Assembly: GCA_027064525.1 (NCBI GenBank)
Contig: JAMOPJ010000008.1
Coordinates: 1 to 64,000 of the forward strand
Origin: Archaeoglobaceae archaeon
GTDB taxonomy: Archaea > Halobacteriota > Archaeoglobi > Archaeoglobales > Archaeoglobaceae
Direction: 5' to 3'
DNA length: 64,000 bases
Shown: positions 1,500-18,119 of the stretch, piece after piece
How the letters are laid out: every line of letters begins with the position of its first letter
How positions within the stretch are numbered: the first letter of the stretch is position 1
Notes under the pieces: model-generated
Database searches by the model: none
Seen by the model: only the letters and a program-made list of their open reading frames with translations
What the model was told of the DNA's origin: nothing
Program-made: the position numbers and the translations under genes

Positions 1500-1517
1500 A
1501 GTCAAATTTTCTTGATC
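1500..1517 (+). promoter_or_regulatory. putative cobalt/cobalamin operator, cbiM copy
   Basis: AGTCAA-ATTTTC-TTGATC matches the consensus AATCAA-N6-TTGATT at 10 of 12 arm positions, with the same six-base spacer ending in C as the copies before btuF and cobN. It lies over the predicted start of transcription, as expected for a repressor site. The regulator is not identified. Confidence 0.5.
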
Positions 1518-1545
1518 ATAAGTAAAGTAAATTGGAGGTGATAAC

Positions 1546-10174: not shown

Positions 10175-10490
10175 CCAATCCCCATAGGAAGGCTTAACTC
10201 GAAATCATAACGGTGAGGACTCTCTAAAATCCATTACATCATTGATCCCATCTTCATTCCTATCTTTCGTTTTTTGAAAGGATTTGGACTGAGGATGTTT
10301 CTTTTTTGAATTAATGTTCACAGTTGAGAAACAACATTTATGAAATGATTTTACTCAAATTTTAACGAATAGACAGTTTTATCCCCCCATCTATCCAAAA
10401 TTTTTCTGAATTCTGAAATCTGAGCAATAAACGATTGCCTTTGGAAGGATACATCTTTCTTCCAATTTTTCGATGATTATCGCAGAAAGA
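10175..10490. other. intergenic region between cbiP and btuF
   Basis: About 315 bases, very AT-rich, with no credible gene. The minus strand has a short frame (about 10207-10317) containing an Asp-x-Asn-x-Asp-Gly-type stretch, which is too short to call. T-rich runs near 10260-10275 on the plus strand may end cbi transcription. Confidence 0.4.
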
Positions 10491-10499
10491 TTTTTAAAA
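10491..10499 (+). promoter_or_regulatory. TATA box of the btuFCD operon
   Basis: TTTTTAAAA is centred about 28 bases before the btuF ATG at 10524, fitting a leaderless or very short-leader transcript. The inverted repeat AATCAA-N6-TTGATT overlaps its 3' end and the predicted start site. Confidence 0.55.
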
Positions 10500-10524
10500 T
10501 CAACATCACTTGATTTAAAATCAA
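10498..10524 (+). promoter_or_regulatory. putative cobalt/cobalamin operator, btuF copy, with three alternating half-sites
   Basis: AATCAA (10498-10503), six bases, TTGATT (10510-10515), then AAATCAA again (10518-10524). The second pair forms the perfect 15-base palindrome TTGATTTAAAATCAA that ends on the A of the btuF start codon. The first pair has the same arms and spacer length as the sites before cobN and cbiM. Confidence 0.6.
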
Positions 10525-11609
10525 TGAAATTTGATAAAGTCCTTTTAGTGTTGTTGGCACTCGCACTCTTAGGCTGCACACAGCATAGCTCCGATCAAGT
10601 TGAACACGGAATCGTAAAGTTCGCCAAGAACTTTCAGATCGAATTTCACGACGGATACAAGATTCTCAAGGTGAAGGAAGATGAAACTTGGAAAACCTAC
10701 ATCCTTTACTACGATAAACCTCCCGAAGGTGTTGAAGGTATTCCGATTAAGATTCCGATAAAGAGAATGGTCGTGATGTCTTCAACGCACATAGCACAAC
10801 TTGAAGCCATAAACGGAACAGATGCCGTCGTTGGATTTATGTATGGGGGTAGATACAAGCTTTACTTCCCAGATGTCGTCGAAAGGCTTGAGAAGGGAGA
10901 GATAGTGGACTTAGGATCACCGAACGCTCCGGATTACGAAAAGCTAATCGAACTTAATCCAGATATCGTGATAATCTACGTAACGAGTAGCAACGAAAAG
11001 GTTAGGGAGAAACTAAGAGAATTGGGCATAAATTACATAGTAGACAGCGAATGGCTCGAAAACGATCCTCTGGGAAGGGCTGAGTGGGTAAAATTCTTTG
11101 GAGCTCTCTTGGATAAAGACGAGGAAGCCGAGGAATACTTCAACAGAATTGTCAAAAATGTTGAGGAAATCGAAGAAGCGGTTAGTAGCGTCGAAGAGAA
11201 GCCGAACGTTTTATGGGCTTTGATATACAAAGGGAGGGTTTACGTTCCAAGAGGGGACGGTTATGTTGCCAAAATGATAGAATATGCCGGAGGAGATTAC
11301 CTGTTCAAAGATGTCAACGGAACAGGAAGCGAAATAATAAACATCGAGGATCTATTACTCAAAGGACAGAAAGCGGATGTCATGATATACTCCTCATACT
11401 ACGTCAAAAGCTTAGACGACATAAAGAGGAAGGAACCAAGAATGGCAGATTTAAAGGTTTTCAAGGAGAGAAAGATCTACAACATAACTCCAGATTACTG
11501 GCAACTCGGATTGCTACATCCAGACATCGTTATAAGAGATCTTGCCGCAATTCTTCATCCTGAGCTCTTCAAAGATTACGAGCCAAGGTTCTTCGTGAGG
11601 TTAACATGA
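10524..11609 (+). CDS. btuF: cobalamin-type ABC transporter substrate-binding lipoprotein (BtuF-like)
   Basis: Extracytoplasmic binding protein of the FecB/BtuF (periplasmic-binding type III) family, 361 residues. A lipoprotein signal with lipobox LLGC (cysteine about residue 18) anchors it to the membrane. The body has two lobes, with VVVMSSTHIAQLEAIN and YEKLIELNPDIVIIY typical of the family. ATG at 10524 places the signal at the very N-terminus; the frame is open 51 bases upstream but that extension would precede the signal. B12 as substrate is inferred from the shared operator and the adjacent pathway; iron-siderophore uptake is the alternative. Confidence 0.85.
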   Translation: MKFDKVLLVLLALALLGCTQHSSDQVEHGIVKFAKNFQIEFHDGYKILKVKEDETWKTYILYYDKPPEGVEGIPIKIPIKRMVVMSSTHIAQLEAINGTDAVVGFMYGGRYKLYFPDVVERLEKGEIVDLGSPNAPDYEKLIELNPDIVIIYVTSSNEKVREKLRELGINYIVDSEWLENDPLGRAEWVKFFGALLDKDEEAEEYFNRIVKNVEEIEEAVSSVEEKPNVLWALIYKGRVYVPRGDGYVAKMIEYAGGDYLFKDVNGTGSEIINIEDLLLKGQKADVMIYSSYYVKSLDDIKRKEPRMADLKVFKERKIYNITPDYWQLGLLHPDIVIRDLAAILHPELFKDYEPRFFVRLT

Positions 11610-12577
11610 GGATCAAATTTGTAATTTTATCTTTTATCTCGATTATTTCAATTTTTGTAGGAATTCTCGCTGGCTCAGTTCACGCCAGTATTCACGACTT
11701 ATACGATTATTTGAAAGGCAAGCAAGATGTTAGGGGATACATAATTTGGGAGGTGAGAGTTCCGAGAACGCTTGGTGCTTTTTTAGGAGGTGCATGCTTA
11801 GCTGTAAGTGGTTTGCTACTTCAAACGTATTTCAGGAATCCTCTAGCTGGCCCGTATGTGCTCGGAATATCCTCCGCAGCTTCTTTAGCTGTAGCACTGT
11901 GCATTTTGGCTGGGATGGGAATACACAACGTTGGTATAGTCGGCTCAGCGTTTTTGGGGTCTATGCTCGCAACTGTATTGATCCTGTGCTTAGCTACCAA
12001 GGTGAGAAATGCGGTAACCCTGTTAGTAGCTGGACTTATGCTCGGATACCTCTTTTCGGCTTTTGAGAAGATACTCATAACACTTGCCGAAAGCCAGAAG
12101 GTTCATCAGTTCATACTGTGGACATTCGGAAGCTTTTCCGGCATAACTTGGGATAACTTGGAGTTAATTACAATCTTAGGAATTCCGGCAATGATGCTCG
12201 TATTTACACTTTCAAAACCGCTTAACGCTCTGCTTTTAGGCGAAGAATATGCTAGAAGTATGGGTGTAAATGTGAAGGCTGTTAGAATGGTTATCGTTAC
12301 TTTATCGAGTTTCTTAACGTCTCTTGTAACTGCGTTTGCCGGAATAGTTGCATTTGTCGGCTTGGCAACACCCCATATGGCGAGGCTACTTTTTAGGACA
12401 TCCGATCACAGGATTCTAATTCCGACGACGATACTGTTGGGAGCGATTGTGACGGTTTTGTGCGACATAATTTCAAGGATTTTGCTGTATCCTGTCGAAC
12501 TTCCTGTGAGTGTTGTGACATCCATGTTTGGAGCACCCATTGTCATTTACCTCGTGATTAAGAGGAGGAGGGTATGA
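11606..12577 (+). CDS. btuC: cobalamin-type ABC transporter permease (BtuC/FecCD family)
   Basis: Integral membrane permease, 323 residues, with about ten hydrophobic helices. Family motifs are WEVRVPRTLGAFLGGACLAVSGLLLQ (about residues 47-72), NPLAGPYVLGISSAASLA and the cytoplasmic L-loop region FVGLATPHMARLL that contacts the ATPase. The start overlaps the btuF stop by four bases and the end overlaps btuD by four, so the three genes are translationally coupled. Confidence 0.92.
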   Translation: MRIKFVILSFISIISIFVGILAGSVHASIHDLYDYLKGKQDVRGYIIWEVRVPRTLGAFLGGACLAVSGLLLQTYFRNPLAGPYVLGISSAASLAVALCILAGMGIHNVGIVGSAFLGSMLATVLILCLATKVRNAVTLLVAGLMLGYLFSAFEKILITLAESQKVHQFILWTFGSFSGITWDNLELITILGIPAMMLVFTLSKPLNALLLGEEYARSMGVNVKAVRMVIVTLSSFLTSLVTAFAGIVAFVGLATPHMARLLFRTSDHRILIPTTILLGAIVTVLCDIISRILLYPVELPVSVVTSMFGAPIVIYLVIKRRRV

Positions 12578-13728
12578 TGCTTGAGGTGAGTAAACTCTCG
12601 GCAGGTTATTCGAACGCCGTTTTGGCTGGAATAGATCTGAACGTTGAAAGGGGTGAGATCCTCGGAATAATCGGCCCAAACGGTAGCGGAAAATCCACAC
12701 TGCTGAAGACGATTTCAGCGATCTTAAAGCCTATGAACGGTGTGGTTTATTTAGACGGGAAGAACGTTCACAAACTGAAACCGTCAGAACTTGCAAAAGA
12801 GTTGGCGATAACAACCACCAATAGATCGGACGTAGGGTTTCTGACGGGATTTGAAGTTGTAAGCTTGGGGAGGTATCCCTACACCGATGCCTTCGGAAGG
12901 CTAAGTGAAAGGGATGTGGAAATAGTAATGGAAGCCTTAAGGCTTGTGAATGCGGAGTACCTTGCAGACAAGCCTTTTTCTGAGATGAGCGATGGTGAAA
13001 AACAGAAGATAATGATTGCAAGGGCTCTAGCTCAACAACCCAAAGTCCTGCTTTTGGACGAGCCTACGAGTTTCTTGGATGCAAAGCATAGGGTTGAGAT
13101 CCCTCTAATACTTAGAAGGATTGCGAACGAGAAGGGGATTGCGATCGTGCTTACCACCCATGACATAGAACTCGCAGTCAGGATATGCGATAGGATTGTG
13201 ATGGTGAAAGACGGCAGGGTAGTTGCCGAAGGGTATGCCGAAGATTTAGATTCCGAAATTGTAAAGGAGCTTTACGGTATAGGTGTTGCCGAATTTGACC
13301 CGTTTTTGGGCACATTCGAGCTTAAAGGTGAAGGTAGAGCTAAAATTCACGTTGTGTGTGGTGGTGGAAGTGGTGCGAGGGTTATGAGACTCCTCACCAA
13401 GAACAGAATTCCATTTACGGCTGGTGTTATACACGAAAACGATATAGATTTCTACATAGCCAAGCATTGTGCTGTTGGGGTTGTGAAGGAAAGACCTTAC
13501 GAGGAGATCAGAGACGAAACATTGGAAGATGCTTTTAGATTGGTTGAAAATTGTGATCTCGTTGTAGATACCGGCTTCCCGATCGGAAAAATCAACGCTA
13601 GGAATTTGGAGGTTTTAAGGACTGCAAAAAGAGTTTACAGTCTCAGGAGTAAGAAAGAGCTTGAGAAAATCGATTTAGATGCCGAAGTTATAAGAATGGC
13701 CGATCTGTTAAAAATCTGCAAATATTAG
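12574..13728 (+). CDS. btuD: cobalamin-type ABC transporter ATPase with extra C-terminal domain (BtuD-like)
   Basis: ATPase of the BtuFCD importer. Residues about 1-245 are a normal FecE/BtuD domain: Walker A GPNGSGKST (about 36-44), signature MSDGEKQK, Walker B LLLDEPTSFLD and switch histidine TTHDIEL. Residues about 255-384 are an additional domain starting KIHVVCGGGSGARVM, a glycine-rich strand-loop-helix followed by alternating strands and helices, much like a Rossmann-type half-barrel. Such tails occur on some archaeal and clostridial BtuD-like ATPases as I recall, but I cannot name a function. It overlaps the end of the opposite nitrilase-like gene by 21 bases. Confidence 0.88.
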   Translation: MMLEVSKLSAGYSNAVLAGIDLNVERGEILGIIGPNGSGKSTLLKTISAILKPMNGVVYLDGKNVHKLKPSELAKELAITTTNRSDVGFLTGFEVVSLGRYPYTDAFGRLSERDVEIVMEALRLVNAEYLADKPFSEMSDGEKQKIMIARALAQQPKVLLLDEPTSFLDAKHRVEIPLILRRIANEKGIAIVLTTHDIELAVRICDRIVMVKDGRVVAEGYAEDLDSEIVKELYGIGVAEFDPFLGTFELKGEGRAKIHVVCGGGSGARVMRLLTKNRIPFTAGVIHENDIDFYIAKHCAVGVVKERPYEEIRDETLEDAFRLVENCDLVVDTGFPIGKINARNLEVLRTAKRVYSLRSKKELEKIDLDAEVIRMADLLKICKY

Positions 13729-14397
13729 TTCTTCGTCGATTTTCTCAGCTTCTGCTATTATTCCTTCCTTAGATAAAATTACGCTCTTCGTTCCGAATTT
13801 TTTACCGTTCCAAACACCGATCCTCGAAACCTTCGCGACGATGACATCAAAAGCTTCTGCTATCTTCTTCGAAATTGGATGGCCTTTGACGGGTGGATGA
13901 TTTGGATCGCTCAGCGAGATTGGTAGGAATATGATGTCGCTTATGCTCGCAACCTCTTTAACGGTATCCCAGTTGAGGCAATCGGCGCATATCAAAAAAC
14001 CGACCTTATCGAATTCCGTTTCTATAACGGTAATGCTTTTTCCGGGCTTTATTCCCGCTTTTATCTCATCCTTCGTTGGATTTATCTTTCTGTATTTAGC
14101 TACTATCTCTCCACGTCTTAAGACGTAGCATGTGTTGTAATATCCCTTTTCAACGACTGTTCCGGCCACCACATAACCGTCGAAGTTACGGGATGCTTCA
14201 ATAAGTTCATCAAGCACATGAGAAGTTATTCGATATAGCTCGAATGCCGAATGCTTCCTGAAAAATTCACCGGGGATTGCGAAGAACTCCGGAAGGCATA
14301 TGAAGTCTGCTTTAACGTTTTCTATTACCTCGCAAGCTCTTCTGACATTTTCCTCGACGCTACCCCTATCGAGCATCTGGAACAGACAGATCTTCAT
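13708..14397 (-). CDS. carbon-nitrogen hydrolase (nitrilase superfamily)
   Basis: Cytoplasmic amidase or nitrilase-family hydrolase, 229 residues. The catalytic triad is visible: Glu in CLPEFF (about residue 37), Lys in KYRKINPT (about 103) and Cys in LICADCLNWD (about 139). The glutamate and lysine motifs are standard; the substrate is not predictable. It is shorter than typical omega-amidases (about 260-280) because the C-terminal strands are trimmed. It converges on btuD with a 21-base overlap and may be independent of the cobalamin genes. Confidence 0.8.
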   Translation of the reverse strand: MKICLFQMLDRGSVEENVRRACEVIENVKADFICLPEFFAIPGEFFRKHSAFELYRITSHVLDELIEASRNFDGYVVAGTVVEKGYYNTCYVLRRGEIVAKYRKINPTKDEIKAGIKPGKSITVIETEFDKVGFLICADCLNWDTVKEVASISDIIFLPISLSDPNHPPVKGHPISKKIAEAFDVIVAKVSRIGVWNGKKFGTKSVILSKEGIIAEAEKIDEELIFADF

Positions 14398-14627: not shown

Positions 14628-17600
14628 TTAGATTTCCTCCTCAAGATATCCATCAATTTCGGCATAAACTTCCTCTATCTGTTCTATCATACTTTCATCT
14701 GCATTCCAAAGTCCCCTCTTATAAGCTTCCAGCAACCTCCTCGCAATCTCTTCAACAGCGTATGGGTTGTTGTCCATAAACCACCTTCTCATTTCATCGT
14801 TGAGCACGTATCTATTCGCTATTTCATCAAATATCCAGTCATCGACTACTTTAGCCGTCACCTGCCAGCCGAAGAGGTTTACGACTCTCTTCATGATGTC
14901 TCCAGCACCCTTGTAGCCGTGTTTCTTCATCCCCTCAACCCAATTCGGATTTAGCAGAGTTTTCCTAACTACCCTTTCGATCTCCTCCCTACCATCGACG
15001 ATCTTTGTAAATTCTGGATTTCTTGTATCACCTATCAGAACCTTCGGCTTTCTTCCCGTCAACTTTTCCACCGTTAACGCCAAGCCACCTTGAAAGGCAT
15101 ATGGACAGTCATCGTCCAAGATATCCCATTCATCTGTGTAGTGATTTCTTACAACCGCTCCGACGTTTTTTAAGCCAAGCTTGAACTCATCCTCAGCCCT
15201 AACTCCAAAAACATCCTTTCCGTAAGCGTAGTAACCCCAATTTATGTAAATTTCAGCCAACTCTTTCTCATCTTGCCAGTGAGACGAATTTATCGCATGA
15301 TTAACTCCAGCTCCGTAGCTTCCGGGCTTATCGCCGAAAATTCTATGCCTCAAACCCTCCAAAAAGTGCTTTTTGACGTAGTTCATCTCTAAAGGCTCAT
15401 CCAAGCTCGCAACCTTAGCGACAGCCTCATCTATCATTTCAACCAGATTCATGAACGTATCTCTGAACAATCCACTGATTCTAACTACAACGTCCACCCT
15501 CGGACGCTTCAGCTCTTCAAGCGGGATTATCCTAAGCCCTACAACTCTATCTCCATCCCAAACGGGCTCAACTCCTAAGAGGTAAAGGATTTCGGCAATC
15601 TGCTCACCGTCGGTATTCATCGGATCGCTACTCCACTCAATGAAAGCGATCGTTTCAGGAATTTTACCTTCCTCCTCAATCAGCTTTTGAATCAGTTGAT
15701 CTGCAAGCTTCTTTCCAACCTCCCACGCTGTCTTTGACGGAATTGCACGAGGATCAACAGAGTAGAAGTTGAATCCCGTCGGTATAGCTTCAATCCTACC
15801 CCTCGTTATGTCTCCAGAAGCAGATGGCTCGATGAATCTACCTTCCAAGGCTTTGAGTAGATTTTCCATCTCCTTAATACTTTCAAGTCGATTTCTAACT
15901 TCCCTACGCATTCCTTCAATCTCATCTCTCGCCTTTTCAACAGCTCCCCTCAAAAACTCTGGATATTCCCCTTTCCTAATCATTCTCAGAATCTCGCTAA
16001 GTGTATAACCGTTAAACTTCTTTGATGGATTCTTTAACACTTCTGCGTAGTCGATTCCAAGTTTTTTCAGAACAATTTTCTCAGGTCTAACTATCGCGTT
16101 GACAAACTCATCTATAGCCGATCTATCAACCCTACCGAACACATGCAGACCGTAGTTGTAAAGCGATTCGTTCTGCTCCAAAATCTTCGAATGCAATTTT
16201 AGTGCCGACTCATCAAAGTTTTCTCCGTTAATTTCAAAATTATGCTTCTTTGCAAGCTCAATGATTCGTTTCTTAGCAACATCGCACTGATCTTTTAACC
16301 CTCTCTCCTTAGCCTTAAAGTATTCTTCCAAAGCAATTTCAAGTTCCTCGTAGCGATTCGACGACTTCATTGGAGGTGGTAGATGGTCGATTATCGTCGC
16401 ATATCCCCTTCTCTTAGCCTGAGTTCCCTCCGCCGGATTATTAACTATGTAAATGTAGATGTTTGGGATGCTACGCAGGCATATATCCGGATAACATTCA
16501 TCCGACAATCCAACGCTCTTGCCGGGCAACCACTCGACGCTTCCGTGCTTCCCTACGTGAATGACAGCATCAAAATTCTCGTTTATAAATCTGTAGAACG
16601 CATAATAATAATGCGGAATGGGCAATGTGGGATCGTGTATGAGCTTGTGAAAGTCTTCAGGATTGAACGTTTTAGCTCTCGGCGGTTGTATTGTGACGAA
16701 AACCTTCCCAAAAGATATCCCCGGTATTCCAATGCTCTCGAATTTTCCCCAAGTCTTTAACATGCCCTTTCTAACTTTATCGGGAAGCTCTTCGAACCAT
16801 CTTGAATATGTCTCCTCATCGACGATAAAAGCGTAATTTGAATTGTAATTCCAGGCACCTTCCCACATTTGCTTCTGCTCTAGGAACATCCTTGCCAATT
16901 CCTTGCCATTTGTCGGAATATTCTCGACATCGTATCCTCTTTCTTTCATAGCTCTCAAAATCTCGACAACGCTTTCGAATGTGTCCAATCCAAGTGCAGT
17001 TCCTACATTCGCTTCAGTATTTCCGATATCCGAAATGTGCAGAACTATTGCCACTCTCTTATCAAAATTGTCCATCCTTCTGAGCTTAAGCCATCTTTCA
17101 GCCTGTTCGACAATCCTTTTAATTCTCTCTTCAATCGGAACCGATTTAAGAATTGTTGGAGTTCTTATCTCAGCCGAAAATACGGTGGGATTTATTACTC
17201 CGTTGAACTCCGGCAACGCAACTGCCATTGATGTTGTTGCGATGTTCAATCCCTGCGGATTGTTTTTCCACTCTTCAGGGCTATTTGCATAAATCTCTAT
17301 GATGTTAAGAATTGGCACATCCAACTGCTTTAAAAGCTCGACATCCCTGCTAACTCTGAAGTATAAACCCCAAAGCAGAAGGGAGATTATTGGTTTATCA
17401 TCGACAAAGAAATACTTTTTTATTGCTTCCTCAACACCTGGCATTCCAACACTCTTATCGGGAAAGGTCATCGTAAATACCGGAATTACTCCAATCTCCC
17501 GCCTTTCAAGTTCGTTTATTAACATATCGATGTGGGCGGTATTTTTGAAAAGATATCTTGCCCTATAAAACAGTAAACCGACGAGATCACGATAATTTAA

Positions 17601-18074
17601 ATATTTTTCATACCATCTCAAGTATTTCTTAACATCTTCAAAAAATCCACCCTTCGGATGGTATATTCCATTCCAAGGCATCTGCTTCGGCTTTTCAACT
17701 TCTATACTCTCATCAAAATACCGCATAACAAATCTAACAAAATTTTTGAGGTTTTCAATACCATCGTAGGCCAGATAAAGATTTAAGGTTTCGTAATCCT
17801 CCTTTGGAATTGTCGAATGTTCGTCGACACTCGATTTGAATGCGATGAAGATTTTATCTTCGACGTGTTTGATGATTTCCCTTTCCCAATTTCCCTTTCC
17901 CATCTGATTTATTATGATTGCATCGTATTGCGATATATCTGGTAACTGGTTCGTCCGATTCAAGCTTTGAACGTCTTTTATCGTTATTTTAAAATTCGGA
18001 TATTCATTCTGAAGTTCTTCGACTGCTAAGTGAAAATGCTGGGAGTTCCAAGCTATAATTAGTATCGACACCAT
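14628..18074 (-). CDS. cobN: CobN/magnesium-chelatase H-type metal chelatase subunit
   Basis: Large tetrapyrrole-binding subunit of an ATP-dependent cobalt chelatase (CobN/ChlH/BchH family), 1148 residues against about 1,250 in bacterial CobN. Family stretches seen include VIHVGKHGSVEWLPGKSVGLS (about 530-550), the downstream AIVRPEKIV region, SSDPMNTDGEQIAEILYLLG and VVVRISGLFRDTFMNLVEMID, with NWGYYAYGKDVFG near the end. ATG at 18074 follows AAGGTG by eight bases; an in-frame ATG nine codons upstream would swallow that site. CobS/CobT or ChlI/ChlD partners are not in the window. Its own operator copy links it to the cobalt regulon. Confidence 0.9.
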   Translation of the reverse strand: MVSILIIAWNSQHFHLAVEELQNEYPNFKITIKDVQSLNRTNQLPDISQYDAIIINQMGKGNWEREIIKHVEDKIFIAFKSSVDEHSTIPKEDYETLNLYLAYDGIENLKNFVRFVMRYFDESIEVEKPKQMPWNGIYHPKGGFFEDVKKYLRWYEKYLNYRDLVGLLFYRARYLFKNTAHIDMLINELERREIGVIPVFTMTFPDKSVGMPGVEEAIKKYFFVDDKPIISLLLWGLYFRVSRDVELLKQLDVPILNIIEIYANSPEEWKNNPQGLNIATTSMAVALPEFNGVINPTVFSAEIRTPTILKSVPIEERIKRIVEQAERWLKLRRMDNFDKRVAIVLHISDIGNTEANVGTALGLDTFESVVEILRAMKERGYDVENIPTNGKELARMFLEQKQMWEGAWNYNSNYAFIVDEETYSRWFEELPDKVRKGMLKTWGKFESIGIPGISFGKVFVTIQPPRAKTFNPEDFHKLIHDPTLPIPHYYYAFYRFINENFDAVIHVGKHGSVEWLPGKSVGLSDECYPDICLRSIPNIYIYIVNNPAEGTQAKRRGYATIIDHLPPPMKSSNRYEELEIALEEYFKAKERGLKDQCDVAKKRIIELAKKHNFEINGENFDESALKLHSKILEQNESLYNYGLHVFGRVDRSAIDEFVNAIVRPEKIVLKKLGIDYAEVLKNPSKKFNGYTLSEILRMIRKGEYPEFLRGAVEKARDEIEGMRREVRNRLESIKEMENLLKALEGRFIEPSASGDITRGRIEAIPTGFNFYSVDPRAIPSKTAWEVGKKLADQLIQKLIEEEGKIPETIAFIEWSSDPMNTDGEQIAEILYLLGVEPVWDGDRVVGLRIIPLEELKRPRVDVVVRISGLFRDTFMNLVEMIDEAVAKVASLDEPLEMNYVKKHFLEGLRHRIFGDKPGSYGAGVNHAINSSHWQDEKELAEIYINWGYYAYGKDVFGVRAEDEFKLGLKNVGAVVRNHYTDEWDILDDDCPYAFQGGLALTVEKLTGRKPKVLIGDTRNPEFTKIVDGREEIERVVRKTLLNPNWVEGMKKHGYKGAGDIMKRVVNLFGWQVTAKVVDDWIFDEIANRYVLNDEMRRWFMDNNPYAVEEIARRLLEAYKRGLWNADESMIEQIEEVYAEIDGYLEEEI

Positions 18075-18092
18075 AATCAAAACACCTTGATT
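18075..18092 (-). promoter_or_regulatory. putative cobalt/cobalamin operator, cobN copy
   Basis: On the plus strand AATCAAAACACCTTGATT: exact AATCAA and TTGATT arms around a six-base spacer, identical in arms and spacing to the site before btuF. It lies directly before the cobN ATG, covers the ribosome binding sequence AAGGTG, and spans the start point predicted from the TATA box at 18108-18119. Confidence 0.6.
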
Positions 18093-18107
18093 TTTGAACA
18101 AATTTAG

Positions 18108-18119
18108 TTTATTAAAAGC
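18108..18119 (-). promoter_or_regulatory. TATA box of cobN
   Basis: On the minus strand this reads GCTTTTAATAAA. It is centred about 25 bases before the middle of the inverted repeat at 18075-18092, giving a short leader that still contains a ribosome binding site. Confidence 0.5.

Follow-up and report, generated by a model that had tools for sequence, protein, structure and literature searches.

Background

In bacteria, B12 genes are largely controlled by riboswitches. The regulons of these cobalamin riboswitches cover B12 and cobalt transport, corrin synthesis and B12-linked enzymes, and the ribonucleotide reductase under such control is usually the B12-independent one. To our knowledge, little is known about the control of B12 genes in archaea: among the matches listed from the open-licence literature, none describes an archaeal B12 operator of the kind reported here, though previous comparative genomics of prokaryotic B12 metabolism may have touched on one.

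Ss-LrpB, an Lrp/AsnC protein of Sulfolobus solfataricus, has the 15-bp palindromic consensus 5'-TTGCAAAATTTGCAA-3' and occupies three juxtaposed sites in its own promoter (PMC4046817, in excerpt), and archaeal Lrp targets are described as clusters of sites spaced by two or three turns (PMC2995911, in excerpt). The SahR and SamR proteins of Proteobacteria (ArsR family) have palindromic operators of 20 and 24 bp that share ATC-10 nt-GAT and control a cofactor-cycle regulon of methionine/SAM genes (PMC4239095, in excerpt).

Here, we describe an array of alternating half-sites that stands at the promoter of a btuF-like gene of an Archaeoglobaceae archaeon and recurs at B12 and cobalt genes of the family; the stretch analysed, 64,000 nucleotides of contig JAMOPJ010000008.1, is referred to as the window. 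Among named records, those nearest to this genome are Geoglobus and MAGs of Archaeoglobaceae. In its gene set the array resembles the cobalamin riboswitch regulons, but it consists of DNA half-sites in the core promoter, has no Rfam match, and its genes include the B12-dependent ribonucleotide reductase. With the Ss-LrpB operator it shares a 15-bp palindrome with TTG...CAA ends, adjacent sites and the setting in an archaeal promoter (PMC4046817, PMC2995911, both in excerpt); it differs in the inner bases (TTGAY, versus TTGCA in the excerpted Ss-LrpB consensus), in half-sites that alternate at 12 and 9 bp with N6 dyads commoner than N3 dyads (48 versus 36 of 99 promoters), and in its targets, which are B12 genes. 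The operators of SahR/SamR are palindromic too and serve a cofactor-cycle regulon, but the tandem 21-bp repeat is a feature of the array and none is seen for SahR/SamR in the excerpt of PMC4239095. Operator arrays of transcription factors as such are known; what appears to be new is the sequence of this array, its alternation at 12/9/12 bp and its association with a B12 regulon throughout an archaeal family.

Two tandem dyads at the btuF promoter

The gene behind the array encodes a btuF-like substrate-binding lipoprotein of 361 amino acids (10524-11609, plus strand; PF01497, E 1.4e-26; lipobox LLGC). It is followed on the same strand by a btuC-like permease (11606-12577; PF01032, E 1.9e-85; best NCBIfam match BtuC NF003001, E 2.6e-65, below cut-off) and a btuD-like ATPase (12574-13728; best NCBIfam match NF007082, corrinoid ABC transporter ATPase, E 4.3e-68, below cut-off), and a cobN-like cobaltochelatase subunit is encoded on the minus strand (14628-18074; TIGR02257, E 3.3e-251, over cut-off). 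These matches agree with the gene names given in the initial annotation of the locus. Upstream of btuF, profile searches found a cobB-cbiM-cbiQ-corrin-synthesis cluster with cobQ. A protein of the CN_hydrolase family (PF00795) is encoded between btuD and cobN (13708-14397, minus strand); by eye, similar ORFs are seen near arrays in two other genomes, G008 (L259 10025-10723) and G022 (L252 4943-5635).

From position 10490, the btuF promoter reads ATTTTTAAAATCAACATCACTTGATTTAAAATCAATGAAATTTGATAAAG. The putative TATA box, TTTTTAAAA (10491-10499, plus strand), is followed by four half-sites: AATCAA (10498-10503), TTGATT (10510-10515), AATCAA (10519-10524; its final base opens the btuF ATG at 10524) and TTGATA (10531-10536; within codons 3-5 of btuF). 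The whole array, AATCAA-N6-TTGATT-N3-AATCAA-N6-TTGATA (10498-10536), thus extends from the TATA-like element to codon 5 and consists of two N6 dyads with their centres 21 bp apart: the second, AATCAA-N6-TTGATA or AATCAATGAAATTTGATA (10519-10536), lies exactly 21 bp downstream of the first. Half-site 2 is common to the first N6 dyad and to the N3 dyad, the 15-base palindrome TTGATTTAAAATCAA (10510-10524; a single central base flanked by arms of 7 bases), which is the junction of the two tandem N6 dyads and, at 15 bp with an A/T-rich centre, has the size of an Lrp/AsnC-type dimer site (13-15 bp). The initial annotation had three alternating half-sites and this palindrome at the btuF start, all exactly where we find them; the fourth half-site was absent from it.

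Judged by the usual archaeal distance between TATA box and start site, transcription would start near position 10520 and the btuF mRNA would be nearly leaderless. The frame of btuF is open further upstream, to an ATG at 10473 (extension 10473-10523), and would then include the TATA-like element and the array; the signal peptide favours the start at 10524.

Within the window, the palindrome TTGATTTAAAATCAA is found at a single location, with 0.04 matches expected at up to one mismatch. The dyad AATCAAN6TTGATT alone is not significant in the window at up to two mismatches (6 matches versus 7.16 expected; 73 of 100 shuffles reach 6). In the whole genome, the pattern WDTCAAN6TTGAHW has 13 sites, while its reversed control has 4. 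Two of these 13 sites are at btuF and one is at cobN, and eight of the other ten lie inside ORFs of at least 60 codons. The four-half-site core TCAAN6TTGAN7TCAAN6TTGA has one exact match in the window, and its three matches with up to three mismatches are the promoters of btuF, cbiM and cobN, versus 0.71 expected (sd 0.87); three or more matches came up in 5 of 100 shuffles. For the pattern TCAAN6TTGAN5TCAATG with two mismatches, in which the third half-site stands at a spacing of 5 and not at the 7 of the array, counts were not clearly above those of the reversed control.

In the initial annotation, the alternating half-sites of btuF could allow two dimers to bind or the two spacings to compete, with a graded response that cobN and cbiM would lack; the exclusion of cobN and cbiM is wrong, as both promoters of the window carry degenerate arrays. 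At cbiM, this is AGTCAA-N6-TTGATC-N3-AGTAAA (1500-1526, plus strand), and at cobN AATAAA-N6-TTGTTC-N3-AATCAA-N6-TTGATT (18075-18113, minus strand), which ends directly before the ATG at 18074.

Conservation among btuF orthologues

We compared 13 btuF orthologues, including that of the window, around the start codon and in register. TTGA of half-site 2 is present in all 13. Eleven have an exact TTGA-N7-TCAA, formed by half-sites 2 and 3; in the remaining two, half-site 3 is altered to TCCA (G004) or lost (G012). A loss of the third half-site in all close relatives, which the initial annotation had named as refuting its proposal, is thus not seen. The TCAA core of half-site 1 is exact in nine of the 13 and changed to TAAA in G001 and G002 and to ACAA in G021 and G030. 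Anywhere in the promoter, TCAA-N6-TTGA is found in 11 of 13 orthologues: in G001 and G002, where half-site 1 became TAAA, the N6 dyad is formed by half-sites 3 and 4. Half-site 4 is in register in four of 13, all from the genus of the window (G000, G001, G002, G004); most other genera have a TCGA/TTGA-like word one base nearer.

Half-site spacing at B12 and cobalt promoters of the family

From 55 Archaeoglobaceae genomes, 99 promoters were collected by protein orthology: 13 of btuF, 11 of cobN (orthologues at ≥59% identity; 29 genomes have a CobN match), 30 of cbiM (39 genomes with a match, 30 with loci used) and 45 of nrdJ. The cobN start in G001 was placed via the motif and agrees with the independent match start. 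Two of the more distant CobN relatives inspected carry an N6 dyad far upstream, at -282 and -291 (L166, L169).

Two spacings stand out. TCAA-N6-TTGA is present in 48 of the 99 promoters and TTGA-N7-TCAA in 36, each with a mean of 0.5 and a maximum of 3 in 200 local shuffles; at the remaining spacings from 0 to 21, no more than 4 (TCAA..TTGA) or 7 promoters (TTGA..TCAA) are reached, and the shuffles have means of 0.4-0.6 at every spacing and a maximum of 5 at any. The set leaves aside the nrdJ promoters of G006 (N6 dyad, no N7) and G078 (neither), with which the counts become 49 and 36 of 101. Both spacings occur together in 27 of the 99 promoters, N6 alone in 21, N7 alone in nine and neither in 42. 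By gene, N6 and N7 are found in 11 and 11 of 13 btuF, 6 and 1 of 11 cobN, 15 and 16 of 30 cbiM and 16 and 8 of 45 nrdJ promoters. When counted by gene and genus, both peaks persist (N6 in 20 and N7 in 15 of 30 cells), and 99 random 190-nt pieces of window positions 19000-64000 have one N6 and no N7. The two spacings of 6 and 3 bases proposed for btuF alone, which correspond to N6 and N7 between cores, thus recur throughout the family.

Like half-sites 21 bp apart, multiple sites two helical turns apart as in a cluster of Lrp/AsnC type, are present for TCAA in 23 and for TTGA in 11 of the 99 promoters. A three-half-site array (with TAAA or TAAG allowed) is found in 38 and a four-half-site array in six, with means of 0.02 and 0.00 in 100 shuffles. 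In the 27 best modules, TCAA is mostly preceded by A or G and TTGA mostly followed by T or C, and all 27, when aligned, have an A/T-rich stretch at the TATA-like position. In more than one genus, the motif recurs at B12/cobalt genes that are not linked to each other: btuF, cobN, cbiM and nrdJ by orthology, and cobT, cbiB, mtaA-like and mtaB-like genes by the model search described below.

At cbiM, arrays are found in eight genera, and 17 of the 30 promoters have three half-sites when TAAA or TAAG is allowed for TCAA; in several of them, half-site 1 is replaced by AATAAA fused with the TATA-like stretch. Non-coding arrays of four half-sites with 12/9/12 spacing precede nrdJ in G033, G068 and G066 and a cbiM paralogue in G002 and G015. 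In genus g5 and in G076, about 110-130 bp separate the nrdJ array from the ATG downstream of it, and the nrdJ promoter of the window's own genome has no array. This nrdJ (contig C51, 14629-18696) matches in three separate stretches within one long frame, and so does that of G001; the split looks like intein insertions.

Model search and extent of the proposed regulon

A sequence-only model, R1, was built from the 27 modules (45 positions) and run on the family, the class and the window's own genome. The class scan returned 51 rows at E ≤0.005, of which 24 were read as training promoters. By our reading, 20 of the 27 non-training rows adjoin cobalamin- or cobalt-linked genes (in four, this is the transcobalamin-like operon described below, with an inferred B12 link, and two are non-independent, one being identical to a training promoter and one a match on the opposite strand), six stand beside genes with no clear B12 link, pilins and radical SAM proteins among them, and one was not assigned. 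Profile searches of genes behind arrays, some of them from weaker matches of the family scan, identified over cut-off the B12-dependent ribonucleotide reductase (NF006417), CobT (TIGR00303), CbiB (TIGR00380), a CbiM paralogue (NF006184) and an MtaA/CmuA-family methyltransferase (TIGR01463), and below cut-off MtaB, CbiF and MtrH-like proteins. NicO/HupE-like genes, named by eye, also carry arrays (L271, L350 and L361, the last with no Pfam match). The matches of the family scan were inspected selectively, and many weak ones lie within ORFs or beside unrelated genes. The cobB genes of G002 and G015 were not counted as targets: they precede the cbiM paralogue in the same orientation.

In the window's own genome, the four top rows are btuF on both strands (E 3.5e-5; one of the 27 training sequences), cbiM (E 0.0072, also training) and, with E 0.045, an operon of contig C36; cobN, a non-training sequence, is the seventh row with E 0.35. 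At 12 further places inspected in this genome, no clear B12 gene was seen. None of the four other genomes of the class has a match at E ≤0.005, which says little, because 22 of the 55 family genomes have none either.

A putative operator and alternative explanations

The explanation that we favour, with a probability of about 0.7, is that the array serves as operator in a B12/cobalt regulon common to the family, bound by two dimers (or one tetramer) of a putative repressor over the TATA box and the start site. The operator would comprise three to four half-sites (RTMAA/TTGAY) in alternating orientation, with half-site starts 12, 9 and 12 bp apart and 21 bp between like half-sites, mostly positioned right after the TATA box and extending across the presumed start site and, at btuF, into the first codons. 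As 21 bp are two helical turns, two dimers on the N6 dyads, or instead a series of units that each bind a half-site, would share one face of the DNA. The initial annotation had seen room for two dimers, and the half-sites indeed form two N6 dyads 21 bp apart, on which two dimers or a tetramer of the candidate transcription factor may bind adjacently. Since the btuF array reaches from the TATA-like stretch to codon 5, its occupancy would block TBP/TFB and the start site, from which we infer repression: the bound factor would keep TBP/TFB and RNA polymerase off the promoter, and on shortage of corrinoid or cobalt, the probable signal, it would leave, turning on the uptake of cobalt and of B12, the synthesis of corrin and some enzymes that use B12. 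Not every case fits simple occlusion, given the distant nrdJ arrays of genus g5 and G076 and the arrays at Lrp genes described below, which stand upstream of the TATA-like stretch. Several further observations speak against this explanation: 42 of the 99 promoters, that of the own-genome nrdJ included, have neither exact spacing, the cobN array scores poorly with R1, half-site 4 of btuF falls in coding sequence and keeps its register in the window's genus alone, six of the 27 non-training rows lack a clear B12 link, none of the own-genome helix-turn-helix loci searched has an array match, and B12 repressing a B12-using enzyme would be odd physiology. A bolder version, to which we give somewhat less than even odds, is that Archaeoglobaceae control acquisition, synthesis and use of B12 by a new protein regulator that senses corrinoid or cobalt and polymerises on the array. 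How many half-sites are intact at a promoter, from two to four, would then set the tightness of its shut-off, and the array would act as a tunable rheostat where bacteria use the cobalamin riboswitch. Promoters that naturally have two, three or four half-sites provide material on how operator number relates to repression in archaea.

The coding position of half-site 4, in register only in the window's genus, and the 21 promoters with an N6 dyad alone would also fit a simpler arrangement, with the first N6 dyad as sole operator and half-sites 3 and 4 as chance words of an A/T-rich promoter and of signal-peptide codons. We reject this as very improbable, as TTGA-N7-TCAA is present in 36 of 99 promoters versus 0.5 expected and in 11 of 13 btuF promoters, and arrays of four half-sites exist outside coding sequence (nrdJ of three genomes, the cbiM paralogue of two). 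Start-codon context was considered as the cause of the N7 dyad and dismissed: at cbiM, the dyad precedes the ribosome-binding site. Least probable of all, and likewise rejected, is an action of the dyads as RNA, in a hairpin or a riboswitch-like leader. TTGAY and RTCAA are able to pair, and bacterial B12 genes are commonly under riboswitches, but at gathering score Rfam has no cobalamin riboswitch in the window and a tRNA as its sole match over 20 regulon loci, the bases flanking the cores in 37 exact N7 dyads show no clear covariation (T-A 12, T-G 7, C-G 7, C-A 4, others 7), and the position of the btuF TATA box would leave almost no leader. A variant of the operator explanation, in which a cobalt (or nickel/cobalt) metalloregulator binds the array and B12 itself is not sensed, draws on the cbiM arrays in eight genera and on the NicO/HupE-like genes; we consider it unlikely, as the B12-dependent ribonucleotide reductase, cobT, the methyltransferases and btuF would fit a corrinoid response more naturally.

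The binding unit might instead be the N3 dyad (15-bp TTGAY-N5-RTCAA) and the regulator an Lrp/AsnC-family protein, the outer half-sites being halves of boxes two turns away. This is compatible with a B12/cobalt regulon and differs in binding unit and protein. The palindrome TTGATTTAAAATCAA has the length of the Ss-LrpB consensus and its TTG...CAA ends, and by analogy with the three juxtaposed Ss-LrpB sites and with archaeal Lrp clusters, the array may work like such an operator (PMC4046817, PMC2995911, both in excerpt). The N7 spacing alone is kept in nine of the 99 promoters, but the N6 dyad alone in 21. Further support comes from an Lrp/AsnC protein (PF01037, E 1.9e-15) whose gene has a four-half-site array upstream in five genomes, with exact cores in G024 and G014 and degenerate ones in G033, G068 and G066; in G016, an array stands beside an N-terminal piece of the gene. 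Against this, relatives of this protein at ≥45% identity are present in 10 of 55 genomes and the window's genome has no close one (best match 28% identical), and by eye, no array was seen before the gene in G067 and G006. Moreover, the Lrp gene is followed by a methyltransferase-like gene (L388-L392) and, in G066, G033 and G068, a divergent MtaA-like gene of the URO-D family lies beyond the array, so the array may serve the methyltransferase operon or the divergent gene. In the window's genome, 30 loci with 37 HTH_24 matches were searched, and none has an R1 match at E ≤2. We consider the N3 reading rather unlikely. Because the window's genome has no close relative of it, the Lrp protein is a lead and not an identification. 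For the family-wide operator that we favour, the array offers an exact bait to fish out its regulator and predicts targets throughout the family.

Poorly annotated genes beside arrays

The array would tie several poorly annotated genes to B12: a small Cys-rich protein, pilins and a transcobalamin-like operon. A conserved protein of 51-53 amino acids (MGCxxCxxY...FPxW...CGxF) starts beside an array in several genera (L381 2432-2593, L374, L385, L270), directly behind it in L381, L374 and L385; the L381 copy has no Pfam match, and the protein perhaps handles metal or corrinoid. In G016 (L365), a BlaI-like wHTH gene, named by eye, stands beside an array that also faces a small Cys-rich ORF, and this arrangement with the Cys-rich ORF recurs in other genera. 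Arrays also adjoin clusters of archaeal pilin-like genes in several genera (L259 10883-11634, L248, L252, L279 and L280; the Pilin_N profile was checked at L259).

The operon on contig C36 of the window's genome (8000-20000; L243 699-6952) lies behind its array and encodes a beta-propeller protein, a DUF4430 and squalene-cyclase-like toroid protein, and BtuF-like and BtuC-like (FecCD) proteins. The toroid protein matches DUF4430 with E 6.6e-14 but does not reach E 0.05 against transcobalamin, while the G002 orthologue has a match to transcobalamins 1 and 2 among solved structures, in their C-terminal domain (E 6e-4). Judging from these sequence matches, the operon possibly encodes a surface B12-capture system. 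Operons like it are also found at L244, L245, L246 and L254.
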